A DNA stretch of 8,683 bases from Candidatus Mcinerneyibacteriota bacterium. Its GTDB lineage: Bacteria > AUK180 > JAQVHJ01. The stretch is from assembly GCA_030630935.1 (NCBI GenBank), contig DAOVMD010000104.1, forward strand, positions 1-8,683, given 5' to 3'. A program made the translations under genes and the position numbers. Shown one piece after another: positions 1 to 4,990 of this stretch. Below the pieces are notes generated by a model. That model had not been told where the DNA came from. It saw nothing but the letters and a program-made list of their open reading frames with translations, and did not search any database. The stretch's first letter is position 1, and each line of letters opens with the position of its first letter.

Positions 1-1119
1 ACCTGTAATTATTCCAATCATTAACGCGAAAGAAAAATTATGTAAAGCTTCTCCTCCCCAAATAAAAATTGCCAAAACAACCATGAATGTTGTTAATGAT
101 GTAAGGAATGTTCTACTAAGGGTTTGATTAATAGAGTAATTAATTAGTTCCTCATACGTTTTCTTATGACGGCTTGTTTTAAGAGTCTCTCTAATTCTAT
201 CATAAATTACAATTGTATCATTCAACGAATAACCAATAATCGTCAGAATAGCCGCAATAATAGGAATGTTAAACTCTTTATTCAGCAATGCAAAAACTCC
301 AATTGTGATCAAGATATCATGGATAAGCGCAAGGATTGCACCAATTGCATATTTTAATTCAAATCGTAAACTAATATAAACTAGTAACCCTATTAATGCA
401 AAAATAATTATTACAAAAGCTGTCTTCCTTAATTCTTTTCCTACTTTTGGTCCAATCAAGGTTGTTTCTCTAATCAGGAAATCATCCTTACCTTCAAATA
501 AAGTCTTAAGGTCAGATTGAAAAGAATCAACTATACTCTGGGTCATTAAATCAGCAATCCCTTCCTTAATCTCACGTTTATTAGCAGTGTTAAGGTTTAT
601 CTTCATCAATTCCGGATTGAGATCCTCAGAATCAACCGCAATTACAGAAGTCTCTGAAGTCTTCTTGAGATTATTCAGATCTGGAGGTGACATAACCTGA
701 ACAGTGAAGATCCTCTTAAAATCATTCATCTGAACTGTTTTAAGCCCAATAACTTCTGCTGCTTCCTTAAGTGTCTTAAAAGAACCCTTGGCTGTGCGAG
801 CTTTGATTAACTTCTCACTCAACTCCTCAGAAAATGCTGGGATCTTCTTCTCAATGATTATCTCTGTGCCTTCTTTTCCCTTAATCCGCTTAACATTTAC
901 ATTTAATTCCTTCCTGATCATATTCTGTTCATCAAGGGTTAATTCATTTTCAAACTTAATCTGCATCTTAATCCCGCCATCAAAATCAATTCCAAAGTTC
1001 AGGCCTCCACGGATTACAATTATGAAAAATAATCCTATTAAAATTAATATCCCGGAAATAAGATATGCCTTTTTTCGGAAGTTAATAAAATCAACATTAG
1101 TATTCCTTAGCCAACGCAT
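1..1119 (-). CDS. secF: Protein translocase subunit SecF, C-terminus cut by window edge
   Basis: SecF works with SecD in the inner membrane, using the proton gradient to pull proteins out of the SecYEG channel on the periplasmic side. The visible 373 residues start at an ATG preceded by AGGAG six bases upstream. Transmembrane helix 1 is near residues 17-36, followed directly by the SecF signature FGIDFDGG (42-49). Helices 2-5 lie near 232-250, 256-276, 284-304 and 335-355, and a sixth begins at about 360. Asp268 (in LIHD) and the SLNDTIVIYDRIRE motif (298-311, including Arg308/Arg310) match the conserved charged positions implicated in proton transfer in SecDF. The periplasmic segment (about 37-231) is about twice the usual SecF size. 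Residues about 92-193 are extra and hold GSFKTLKEAAEVIGL and INLNTANKREI, which look like pieces of a ComEA helix-hairpin-helix. The gene follows secD by 13 bases, so co-translation is likely. The end, perhaps 20-40 residues, is outside the window. Confidence 0.95.
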   Translation of the reverse strand, partial: MRWLRNTNVDFINFRKKAYLISGILILIGLFFIIVIRGGLNFGIDFDGGIKMQIKFENELTLDEQNMIRKELNVNVKRIKGKEGTEIIIEKKIPAFSEELSEKLIKARTAKGSFKTLKEAAEVIGLKTVQMNDFKRIFTVQVMSPPDLNNLKKTSETSVIAVDSEDLNPELMKINLNTANKREIKEGIADLMTQSIVDSFQSDLKTLFEGKDDFLIRETTLIGPKVGKELRKTAFVIIIFALIGLLVYISLRFELKYAIGAILALIHDILITIGVFALLNKEFNIPIIAAILTIIGYSLNDTIVIYDRIRETLKTSRHKKTYEELINYSINQTLSRTFLTSLTTFMVVLAIFIWGGEALHNFSFALMIGIITG

Positions 1120-1132
1120 GGTTTTCTCCTAT

Positions 1133-2557
1133 TTATATGCTTAATTTTTTCACTTTAAAATTATTCAAAATAATATCAAATGCCAGCTTAGTAAAAACAA
1201 TTGCCGTAAACATACTGGCTAAAATTCCAATCGATAATGTTACTGCAAATCCTTTGATTGGACCTGTTCCAAATTTAAAGAGTACCAATGCCGCGATAAG
1301 AGTAGTTACATTAGCATCTAAAATTGTAACCCAGGCCTTTTTAAAACCAGCATCAATTGCTGCTCCAACTGTCTTACCGAGCCGTAGCTCTTCTTTTGTT
1401 CTTTCAAATATTAAAACGTTTGCGTCCACAGCCATACCAACCGTCAGAATTAAACCTGCAATTCCGGGAAGGGTAAGGGTGAAATGGAATAAGGTCATAA
1501 TCCCAAGAACAATTATTAAATTTAAAAACAATGCGAAATTAACAATTAAGCCGGAAGCTTTGTAATAAAATAACATGAATAAAATCACAAAAACCCCACC
1601 AATTAAGATTGAGATCGCACCAAAATAAATTGAATCCTTTCCAAGAGATGGACCAATTGTCTGATTGTGCAATACTATAACCGGAGCAGGTAAAGCACCT
1701 GTCCTTAACTTCAATGCCAGGTCACTCGCAGTGTCAAGTGTAAATCCGCCGCCGCTTATCCTCGCACTTCCACTTGGAATAGGTTCATCAATAACCGGTG
1801 CGGAAATAATAACATCGTCAAGGATAATTGCTAACCGCTCATTAACATGTTGTGATGTAATTCTATAAAAAATCTTACCACCCTTCTTGTTGAAGTTTAT
1901 AGTAACATACGGTGCTCCCATTGTACTTGATGAAAAATTCATCCGGGCATCTTTAATCATATCACCGGTTAAGAGTGTCTTTGATTTTACAAGAAAAGGT
2001 TTTTTGAGGACTTTCCCATATTCATCTCTTCCATATTGAAAAAGAATCTCTCTACCTCTTGGTAAAATAACATCTTTAACAATTTTACCTGTTTCAGGAT
2101 CAATGTACCTGGTTATATCTCCTTTCTCATCCAATAATTTAAACTCTAAATAAGCAGTGGATTGAATTAAGTCAATCGCACGATCAGTATCAGCGATGCC
2201 GGGAAGCTCAACCACTATCTTAGTCGAACCTTCTTTGGCAACTGTCGGTTCTGAAACTCCAAACTCATCAATCCTGGTCCTGATCTTTGCAATTACACGG
2301 TCAATTGCATCTTTCTTCTGAGCTGCTGGAATTTCTGAAGTATCAACCTCAAGAACTACACGAATACCTCCTTGAAGGTCAAGACCAAGGCTGATCTTCC
2401 TCTCTTCTAATTGTTTAATCTCAGCAGATGTAAGCTTCTCTAAACGTTCTTCATCAGAATACGAATACCATTTCAAAGTCGGAATAATTGACATAATGGC
2501 TAAAACTACAACAACCACTACTAATAAACTTCTCCATAAAATACTTTTTCTTCTCAT
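1133..2557 (-). CDS. secD: Protein translocase subunit SecD
   Basis: SecD is the larger partner of SecF in the RND-like export motor that completes Sec-dependent translocation. This 474-residue protein has an N-terminal transmembrane helix (about 10-28) and the SecD signature SLGLDLQGG (56-64). A large periplasmic region follows, with RIDEFGVSEPTV (95-106), VVELPGI (115-121) and the stretch ending LRTGALPAPV (284-293). IGPSLGKDSI (301-310) leads into five C-terminal helices, near 308-330, 335-355, 360-383, 408-428 and 436-462. GMAVDANVLIFERTKEE (374-390) holds Asp378, matching the essential intramembrane Asp of Thermus SecDF. The ATG start has AGGAG five bases upstream and a plausible promoter in the preceding 85-base gap. 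The protein ends KLSI, 13 bases before secF. No yajC lies upstream, where many bacteria carry it; an exported hypothetical protein takes that place. The gene looks intact and of normal length. Confidence 0.97.
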   Translation of the reverse strand: MRRKSILWRSLLVVVVVVLAIMSIIPTLKWYSYSDEERLEKLTSAEIKQLEERKISLGLDLQGGIRVVLEVDTSEIPAAQKKDAIDRVIAKIRTRIDEFGVSEPTVAKEGSTKIVVELPGIADTDRAIDLIQSTAYLEFKLLDEKGDITRYIDPETGKIVKDVILPRGREILFQYGRDEYGKVLKKPFLVKSKTLLTGDMIKDARMNFSSSTMGAPYVTINFNKKGGKIFYRITSQHVNERLAIILDDVIISAPVIDEPIPSGSARISGGGFTLDTASDLALKLRTGALPAPVIVLHNQTIGPSLGKDSIYFGAISILIGGVFVILFMLFYYKASGLIVNFALFLNLIIVLGIMTLFHFTLTLPGIAGLILTVGMAVDANVLIFERTKEELRLGKTVGAAIDAGFKKAWVTILDANVTTLIAALVLFKFGTGPIKGFAVTLSIGILASMFTAIVFTKLAFDIILNNFKVKKLSI

Positions 2558-2642: not shown

Positions 2643-3971
2643 TTAGAAAAATTTCAAAATCATTAACTTCCCTGATTTAAATACTAGGATATCATTTTTT
2701 ATCTTATCAGCATTATAAACATAGGAGATTCGTTTGATGTCACCAACGTCAATTGTAAAAATCGGTAATCCACCTATACCAAGTTTTTCATCATTGATAT
2801 GAACACTAAGCTTGCCTTTATAATAATAAATTACATCTTCAATTTTATCGCCTGTAATATCGCTTAAGAAAAAATTATTCAGTGTATAAAACAAATCTGA
2901 CTTACCGTCAACTTGAATAAACTTATAGGCCTTTGTGGGCATCCTTTTATAGCGCCCCTTTTCCCACTGTATCCGGGGTACAAAATAAACATCTAAAACC
3001 TTATCTTTCTTGACATATTGCTTAAGCGCAATAGGTTGAATATAGTAAATCACCAGAAGATCTGATAACTTCCCCTTGTCCAGCCGACCCCCATGAATAT
3101 CAACTGCATTTTCCTTAATTCTCGATATTAATGGAGGAGTTGAAATATCTCCATCAAAATATATCTCTACTTTTGTACTGGTATAGATATCAGAAAAAAT
3201 CATCAAGTCACGGTGACCATTTAAATCAATATCGCGGAAGGAATATCTGAAGTTTTTATAGGGAGCTATCTTTATTTTAAATTCTAGACTTAAATCTTCA
3301 TTGTTAATAATTTTATACAATAAAATGCTATTGCCCACAAAAACTGTGAAATACCGGTCATCACCTTTTGAAAAAATATGCAGGTATTTAAATTCGTAAC
3401 TAAGTTTTTCTGATGGTGGTATTGAATTATAACTGACAGAAAATTCCGTTTTAACCTCACCCGGCAGAAAAACACCCTTACTTGTAATCGGTTTGTCTCC
3501 CATTCCAAAATAAACCCGGTAACCGTCATCTTCCGGAATTGAAATTGCATAATTGTCATCGTCAAATTTAAATATAAAATTATTCCTATAGTTGATACCT
3601 AACCTAATTGGGAAAACAGTTGCGATGTCTCTTAGTTTCTTAGGCTTGCTGCCGTCCAACGGAACATATTCAATGCTACTTTTCTTAAGTAAAATCAAAA
3701 AATCATTAAATATCTCAAAATCAATACAGTTCTCTCTTGTCGAATAAATCTCCTTAAGCTCTGATGTCTCAGGATTGTATTCCTGAAAAATAACCATATC
3801 AGCAGTCCTTAACATAAAAATATATTTCGACAATTCAGAATCTTTAATGTTGCTGCCTTTTATCTTTACAATATCTCCCGTTATATTGATGGTGTCCTGC
3901 TTATACTGATATGGAAAAGTGAAATTTACTGTTAAAAAAAGAAGGAAAATTATAAGAATATTTTTTTTCAT
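2643..3971 (-). CDS. Exported hypothetical protein with FG-GAP/VCBS-like repeats
   Basis: I do not recognise this 442-residue protein as a named family. It has a signal peptide: Lys2-Lys3, a hydrophobic core (about 5-18), and likely cleavage near residues 20-22. There is no lipobox cysteine, so it is probably periplasmic or outer-surface. The rest is beta-rich with no membrane helices. In the second half, short Asp/Gly turns precede hydrophobic strands: DIDLNGHRDL (247-256, close to the calcium-loop pattern DxDxNGxxD), GGRLDKGKLSDLLVIY (294-309), SDITGDKIEDVIYYY (370-384) and NADKIKNDILVF (420-431). This spacing suggests blades of a degenerate integrin-alpha-like beta-propeller (inference). 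Its ATG overlaps the stop of the upstream DUF1573 lipoprotein gene as ATGA, and no strong Shine-Dalgarno is seen, so translational coupling is likely. That link suggests the two exported proteins act together. The function is unknown. Confidence 0.85.
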   Translation of the reverse strand: MKKNILIIFLLFLTVNFTFPYQYKQDTINITGDIVKIKGSNIKDSELSKYIFMLRTADMVIFQEYNPETSELKEIYSTRENCIDFEIFNDFLILLKKSSIEYVPLDGSKPKKLRDIATVFPIRLGINYRNNFIFKFDDDNYAISIPEDDGYRVYFGMGDKPITSKGVFLPGEVKTEFSVSYNSIPPSEKLSYEFKYLHIFSKGDDRYFTVFVGNSILLYKIINNEDLSLEFKIKIAPYKNFRYSFRDIDLNGHRDLMIFSDIYTSTKVEIYFDGDISTPPLISRIKENAVDIHGGRLDKGKLSDLLVIYYIQPIALKQYVKKDKVLDVYFVPRIQWEKGRYKRMPTKAYKFIQVDGKSDLFYTLNNFFLSDITGDKIEDVIYYYKGKLSVHINDEKLGIGGLPIFTIDVGDIKRISYVYNADKIKNDILVFKSGKLMILKFF

Positions 3972-4990
3972 TTTAACACTTGGAATTGTAATTTAATTTT
4001 AAACATACTAACTTTTTCATGAGAAGTTTTTATTACTAACTCATCTTTAATTAAACCCGGTTTAACATTCTCTGTATCAAGCCAGACTATTATTCCATAA
4101 CGGCTGCCTTTCTTCAACTCGGAAATCTTAACCTTAATGTTTGGATTTTTCACCTTTACACTCTTAACAGAGAATTTAACCTTATCAGAATAAACTAAAA
4201 GCATCTGAGCACGGAAGTCTCCCCGTCTTTGCCTGATCGTAATATTACTACGATTAACGTTAATATCAGATTTTATATCGGCGGAAACCGGAACTGTAAT
4301 CTTTGGCATCTTTTTATCATCAAGCTCAATAATTATCTTACCGTTTACCCTTCCAATATAGTTCCCCTTAATACTTACCTCTAACTCTATCCCTTTCCTG
4401 CCTTTCTCAACAAAATCTTTTTGAACAAAACTAAAGAATGAATCATTAATTCCATAGACTCGTTTTACTATTACTGCTTTGGCACGGTCGGGAAATATCC
4501 TGATTTTCCTCTTATAAGGATAAGCATAGGGAATCTTACCAAAATTCAGATTAGTTGGCCTGACAACAATGTATGCACGAACAAAACCAGCAATTGTTAT
4601 CGGAATATTCTCCTTCAAAGGATCATTGGTAATTACATGAATGGTCTTCTTCACTTTATTCAGATAGGTTCCCGTCTTAAATATTACTTTAATCTCACCC
4701 GTTCCACCGGGGGGGATTGGTTCTTTGGGCCACTTCGGAACTGTACAACCACAGGTGGACCTGACATTCTTGATTAAAAGAGGACCGGTTCCGATATTCT
4801 TAAACTTATAAATGTGTTCAATCGAAACCTTCTGGTCAGCCTCGCCAAAATTAAACTCTGTCTCGGAAAATTTGATCCTGGGAATACGCTCTTCGACAAT
4901 TAAACCCTTCTCTTCAGTTTCACAACTTGTTGCAAAAAAGATCAGTAATAAAAACATTGAAATCAGAATAGATCTGCTGCTCCTTCTCAT
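3968..4990 (-). CDS. DUF1573-domain lipoprotein with three Ig-like (ASH-type) domains
   Basis: This 340-residue protein begins with a lipoprotein signal: basic MRRSSR, a hydrophobic core (8-19), then lipobox ATSC with Cys23 as the predicted lipidated residue. The first mature domain (about 38-137) has the DUF1573 hallmarks: FNFGEAD (46-52), a KFKNIGTGPL strand-turn (62-71), the STCGCTVP cysteine motif with Cys80 and Cys82, the proline-glycine turn PPGGTGEIKVIF (93-104), and ITND near 120. A second similar domain opens with RPTNLNFGKI (144-153), and a third beta-rich domain fills about 245-340. DUF1573 belongs to the ASH/MSP-like immunoglobulin superfamily. Such proteins are common in diderm anaerobes, but their role is mostly unknown; a scaffold or binding role at the envelope is inference. 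The ATG start has AAAGGAG six bases upstream. It follows ackA by 28 bases and overlaps the next exported gene by four, so all three are probably one transcript. Confidence 0.88.
   Translation of the reverse strand: MRRSSRSILISMFLLLIFFATSCETEEKGLIVEERIPRIKFSETEFNFGEADQKVSIEHIYKFKNIGTGPLLIKNVRSTCGCTVPKWPKEPIPPGGTGEIKVIFKTGTYLNKVKKTIHVITNDPLKENIPITIAGFVRAYIVVRPTNLNFGKIPYAYPYKRKIRIFPDRAKAVIVKRVYGINDSFFSFVQKDFVEKGRKGIELEVSIKGNYIGRVNGKIIIELDDKKMPKITVPVSADIKSDINVNRSNITIRQRRGDFRAQMLLVYSDKVKFSVKSVKVKNPNIKVKISELKKGSRYGIIVWLDTENVKPGLIKDELVIKTSHEKVSMFKIKLQFQVLK

Follow-up and report, generated by a model that had tools for sequence, protein, structure and literature searches.

A probable circularly permuted helix-hairpin-helix domain in the periplasmic part of SecF

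The window analyzed here, a stretch of 8,683 nucleotides from a Candidatus Mcinerneyibacteriota bacterium (contig DAOVMD010000104.1, assembly GCA_030630935.1), carries a secF gene whose product has an enlarged periplasmic domain, which raises the question of what the additional residues are and what they may do. Current models assign to SecDF the task of pulling substrates, and its periplasmic domains contact outer-membrane assembly in E. coli (PMC7695460). An added and deeply conserved SecF domain would indicate that lineages never studied at the bench have a partner or mechanism that has gone unrecognised. Our literature search found no paper that treats SecF together with the helix-hairpin-helix (HhH).

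The secF gene occupies positions 1..1119 of the minus strand (373 codons), with its C-terminal end removed by the contig edge. The product belongs to the SecF family according to two models (TIGR00966, 266.7 bits versus a cut-off of 160; PF02355, 203.8 versus 20.5), and the gene adjoins that of its partner, the upstream secD (1133..2557, minus strand; TIGR01129, 441.7 bits), as expected for SecF. A piece corresponding to residues 307-373 at 96% identity, and reaching the C-terminus, is found on another contig of the same assembly (G000:C68:1-201); this repeat suggests strain variation within the assembly. Farther along the window, positions 2643-3971 encode a 442-aa protein that is predicted to be secreted and has no Pfam match, and this frame overlaps by 4 bases with its neighbor at 3968-4990, a candidate DUF1573/HYDIN-type Ig-like lipoprotein.

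In the AlphaFold2 model of the full SecF (mean pLDDT 77.7), the first transmembrane helix (TM1, residues 11-37, 1009..1089 of the minus strand, as are all features below) is followed by the first half of the periplasmic (P) domain (residues 42-92, 844..996), comprising the GG motif (Sec_GG, 39-58), strand 1 (49-56), helix 1 (62-72), and strands 2 (75-78) and 3 (86-92). The ferredoxin-like domain is completed by helix 2 (residues 194-207, 499..540) and strand 4 (residues 214-222, 454..480), which runs into TM2 (residues 224-252, 364..450). The extra material, about 99 residues (93-191), sits between strand 3 and helix 2; window positions 541-846 correspond to SecF residues 92-193. The enlargement reported in the first-pass annotation is thus real, with 177 residues from the GG motif to VGP versus 78-89 in most other sampled SecFs, while its figure of about 195 residues between the transmembrane helices has to be corrected to 186 in the AlphaFold2 model. 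The remainder of the protein is a conventional SecF. It shares the GG motif and GYSLNDTIVIYDRIRE with E. coli SecF and Thermus SecDF (5mg3, 3aqp), and its transmembrane bundle and P domain superpose on Thermus 3aqp (VIA Z 19.6, rmsd 3.0 over 262 residues), which establishes the SecDF fold; the list of VIA matches to the full model is filled by SecDF and RND pumps. What distinguishes the window SecF from both known proteins is the additional domain between strand 3 and helix 2. Going by the standard topology of ferredoxin-like folds, this loop is expected at the membrane-near side of the P domain.

The insert contains all four helices of an HhH domain, in the order b-c-d-a. Helix b, the second helix of HhH motif 1 (residues 93-111, 787..843, IPAFSEELSEKLIKARTAK), comes first and falls within the match to the Pfam family HHH_3 (HHH_3 18-54). 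It is followed by helix c, the first helix of motif 2 (residues 117-123, 751..771), which aligns with the IEDIMNV helix of canonical units, and by helix d, the second helix of motif 2 (residues 128-137, 709..738), aligned with their EKTFEKLQPY. A disordered and variable linker (residues 143-172, 604..693; disordered over about 145-168, with pLDDT <50 at 151-168) then joins what are the C- and N-terminal ends of a canonical domain; it takes about 30 residues in the window and few residues in most homologues. Finally, the INLNTA cap and helix a, the first helix of motif 1 (together residues 174-190, 550..600; helix at 181-190), stand at the C-terminal end of the domain, so that the break lies in hairpin 1. 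Both sequence motifs noted previously are where they were placed, EKLIKARTAKGSFKTLKEA at approximately 101-119 and INLNTANKREI at 174-184. The AlphaFold2 helix boundaries coincide with the expected places of HhH helices, with pLDDT of 85-91 for b-c-d and about 89 around helix a in a model of the fragment. Bridge-type residues appear at 138-139 and 174-175 in both the full and the fragment models, and, judged from the DSSP string alone, helix a may pack on b-c-d as it does in ComEA. Asparagine 177 and arginine 108 are invariant across 19 insert sequences from two phyla. Between the window and its sister genome (G001), identity is 70% in the HhH parts and 78% in the rest of SecF, compared with 32% in the linker. 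Conservation of the HhH parts nearly matches that of the remaining SecF sequence, in contrast to the linker, and this pattern speaks for a maintained fold.

The resemblance to HhH is supported by several scores. A profile search of the insert region, as proposed in the first-pass annotation, places it far above chance. Pfam HHH_3 matches residues 92-128 of the window SecF (E=1.2e-4) and the SecF of the sister genome (1.3e-5). In native order, the window scores 22.6 bits as a whole protein or 26.5 as a fragment, below the Pfam cut-off of 27, which native-order homologues pass (46 bits for L093, the SecF of a genome from another phylum, and 31.9 bits for L116). When the window insert is un-permuted, its HHH_3 score rises from 26.5 to 33.2 bits, and the same operation on the L093 insert raises its score for the GspK domain (T2SSK) from 22.8 to 29.0 bits (cut-off 24.2).

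We also built a local HhH model from 35 canonical units of related genomes. These were gathered by a pattern that forces N at position 4, so the conservation of that asparagine is partly circular. On native residues 86-222, the model matches unit positions 13-62 (16.8 bits) and then positions 1-13 (5.5 bits); on the rejoined window insert it gives 32.5 bits over positions 1-61, with shuffles of the joined sequence reaching at most 8.1. The profile of 19 inserts behaves in the same way in hhalign, matching positions 13-64 of the canonical units (pairwise E-value 1.8e-14) and then positions 1-14 (pairwise E-value 1.5e-4) and, after rejoining, giving a single ungapped match of 63 columns over positions 1-63 (pairwise E-value 2.9e-21). 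In a profile-profile comparison, residues 92-142 correspond to unit positions 13-63 and the helix a segment to positions 1-14. Each half scores above all of 200 column shuffles (71.0 versus a best of 18.5 for b-c-d; 25.8 versus a best of 15.2 for a). Complementary and non-overlapping halves in swapped order are the expected outcome of circular permutation, and the earlier suggestion of reversed halves, as in a circular permutant, is borne out. Structure searches with the insert model were less informative: Foldseek returned four matches, all with E >4 and none of them HhH, and VIA-align gave no useful candidates, both methods belonging to the sequential aligners that perform poorly with permuted folds of about 50 residues.

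The ComEA DNA-binding domain (HHH_3; 8dfk, 8dss, 2duy) is among the closest known systems. It shares with the insert two loop-joined HhH motifs, the INxNTA cap, the IIxYR helix and the GxF-S/T-xEEL helix, 63 gap-free columns once the insert is un-permuted, and a place of action outside the cytoplasmic membrane. In contrast to ComEA, where the domain is free or membrane-anchored, the insert is embedded in SecF, runs b-c-d-a, and lacks the hairpin glycines and lysine. Another HhH-like unit that belongs to secretion machinery is the SAM/HhH-like domain of GspK, whose cut-off is passed by the un-permuted L093 insert. However, the un-permuted window insert reaches just 16.4 bits against T2SSK and so does not qualify as a GspK domain, and GspK is a pseudopilin rather than an RND-type motor. 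With the rejoined window sequence passing HHH_3 and the rejoined homologue passing T2SSK, the proposed reading as a permuted HhH/SAM-like unit akin to those in ComEA and GspK is upheld.

We conclude that the extra part of SecF is probably one complete ComEA-type HhH domain of two motifs, a natural circular permutant placed between strand 3 and helix 2, which may serve as a protein-contact or stiffening element rather than as a DNA binder. It would be a clear instance in nature of circular permutation in an HhH domain, and relatives still show the empty site.

The suggestion that the insertion is lineage-specific does not hold in the narrow sense, because the b-c-d-a order is conserved in three phyla, as a homologue survey of the kind suggested earlier revealed. 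The permuted insert is present in all seven genomes examined from the phylum of the window. In the second phylum (17 genomes, with G185, the source of L093, as the first match), 12 SecFs covering the region (L150-L161) carry it, as does one partial sequence (L165), and its HhH likeness is often much stronger there. Two genomes of the second phylum, G256 (L162) and G033 (L163), lack the insert and preserve the empty site, VLIRCGTKESAKERLAQKIQEAL; helix 2 is present in these SecFs as well. A further genome, G257, carries a SecF copy without the insert (L166) beside an insert-bearing one. In the third phylum (G132, 14 genomes), b-c-d-a is found in 12 SecFs, which are all the readable ones that span the region, and these score 21-37 bits against the insert model versus a shuffled maximum of 4.3. 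Weaker signs of the insert, with weak scores, appear in the phylum of G024. The SecFs of the phylum of G035 look alike by eye, but their scores are at background and we did not count them. Named insert-bearing copies come from the MAGs STE_202, AUK180, CSMAG_2929, SRR6284161_bin.61, RS_10_39 and RS_12_30; a scan of genome contigs recovered only these same six genomes with the insert alignment as query, and none with the full SecF.

Most other SecFs examined from the survey of 241 genomes have a short P domain, and about ten have an expanded one without HhH. Nine SecFs considered as possible carriers of the same insert (L097, L109, L111, L112, L114, L118, L119, L025 and L031) have P domains of at least about 160 residues and no convincing HhH match, and were rejected; their P domains are apparently ferredoxin-like units that have been enlarged or doubled. 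A different site, between helix 2 and strand 4, also bears HhH-like pieces, here in the usual order, in SecFs of other phyla (L017, L057-L059, L095, L117). The pieces at this site are strong in G144 (L117, HHH_3 30.8 bits, above the cut-off), and weak in the G040 group, in G095 and in L095. The SecFs of G040, G095 and G144 share with the window an HhH-like unit in the P domain, but differ in its site and in its unpermuted order, and the scores of G040 and G095 are weak. It is conceivable, though doubtful, that a permuted ComEA-type HhH has been fixed as a docking or gripping element of SecDF in several phyla and that elsewhere a second, independent HhH capture took place at another loop.

An alternative is that b-c-d of one HhH unit and a of a second one form a truncated tandem that does not fold into one domain, in which case the swapped order would be an effect of register and not a structural permutation. 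Linker-joined tandem units are indeed common in the phylum of the window, and the 30-residue linker resembles theirs. However, each element occurs in the insert once and no more, SecFs that lack the insert still have helix 2, the few residues between d and INxN in most homologues leave no room for a pair of separate domains, and the AlphaFold2 models mark bridge residues both where d ends and at INxN; altogether these observations make a truncated tandem unlikely. Still another explanation, a helical insert that resembles HhH through convergence or chance, could draw on the absence of a Foldseek match for the insert model in the fold library and on family f2, a group within the phylum of the window, in which the b-c-d half alone scores 0.9-9.8 bits against the HhH model, close to background. 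As f2 is strongly diverged, it is assigned to HhH through its alignment with the other families. The 46-bit Pfam match of L093, the complementary halves that each exceed every shuffle, and the same order in three phyla render convergence or coincidence extremely improbable.

DNA binding by the insert was evaluated from the residues that contact DNA in canonical units. Glycine 18 of hairpin 1 is found in 29 of the 35 canonical units and in 0 of 19 inserts. The corresponding counts for glycine 49 of hairpin 2 are 28/35 and 0/19, the count being alignment-dependent in the second phylum because an indel may shift part of hairpin 2 there, and those for lysine 51 of hairpin 2 are 27/35 and 0/19. The inserts therefore lack the hairpin GhG and lysine that characterize DNA-binding HhH. 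In ComEA, a loop joins two HhH motifs whose lysines are needed for transformation (PMC9747964). The proposal that the SecF HhH still binds nucleic acid, and so provides a periplasmic link between export and DNA uptake, could appeal to the DNA bound by ComEA HhH domains (PMC9747964) and to HhH relatives in the phylum of the window that adjoin a ComEC-like gene (L034). Against it stand the absence of either hairpin glycine and of the hairpin-2 lysine from 19/19 inserts, their mostly negative net charge (the window itself has +4 and its sister +2), and the use of hairpin 1 for attachment. Since the hairpin glycines and lysine are missing and hairpin 1 is spent on joining SecF, we regard DNA binding as very unlikely.

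With the DNA-gripping tips gone, the permuted domain probably has a structural or docking role within the export machinery. The chain would come in through the tip of hairpin 1 and run through b-c-d; the linker would then connect the former C- and N-ends, and the INxN cap and helix a would follow, with the way out, again through this hairpin, leading to SecF helix 2. An opening at hairpin 1 would place the points of entry and exit next to each other, an arrangement well suited to a loop insertion, and would consume the hairpin that otherwise touches DNA. Mounted on the P domain, the insert may dock a periplasmic partner or substrate during SecDF cycling, or may act as a stiffener. The periplasmic domains of E. 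coli SecDF contact BAM, with a smaller share for SecF (PMC7695460), and this makes docking or stiffening the most economical proposal.

The phylum of the window stands out by its many ComEA-type HhH units, having 6-11 HHH_3 matches per genome (G000-G006) versus 0-2 in nine searched genomes outside the class, and many of these matches are tandem units with linkers. Duplication followed by trimming is the textbook route to a circular permutant. We infer that the insert arose from the tandem HhH proteins of the phylum by capture in the tandem register: if b-c-d came from one unit, together with the linker, and a from the unit behind it, exactly the b-c-d-a order would result. In trees of the transmembrane region, the window and the second phylum form one clade with support of 83 in a quick tree, whereas a careful tree lacks that clade, which is nevertheless not rejected (p-AU 0.467); the tree appears compatible with either one capture or several. 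Among the HhH proteins of the phylum, the sister genome has a locus (L034:775-6000, G001:C137) that encodes an outer-membrane-type protein carrying a tandem pair of HhH units at its C-terminus, then one of 669 aa whose HhH unit is N-terminal and, downstream of the latter, a ComEC-like frame (HVLAVSGLHV). This locus is possibly a DNA-uptake island in which HhH units are fused to outer-membrane proteins.
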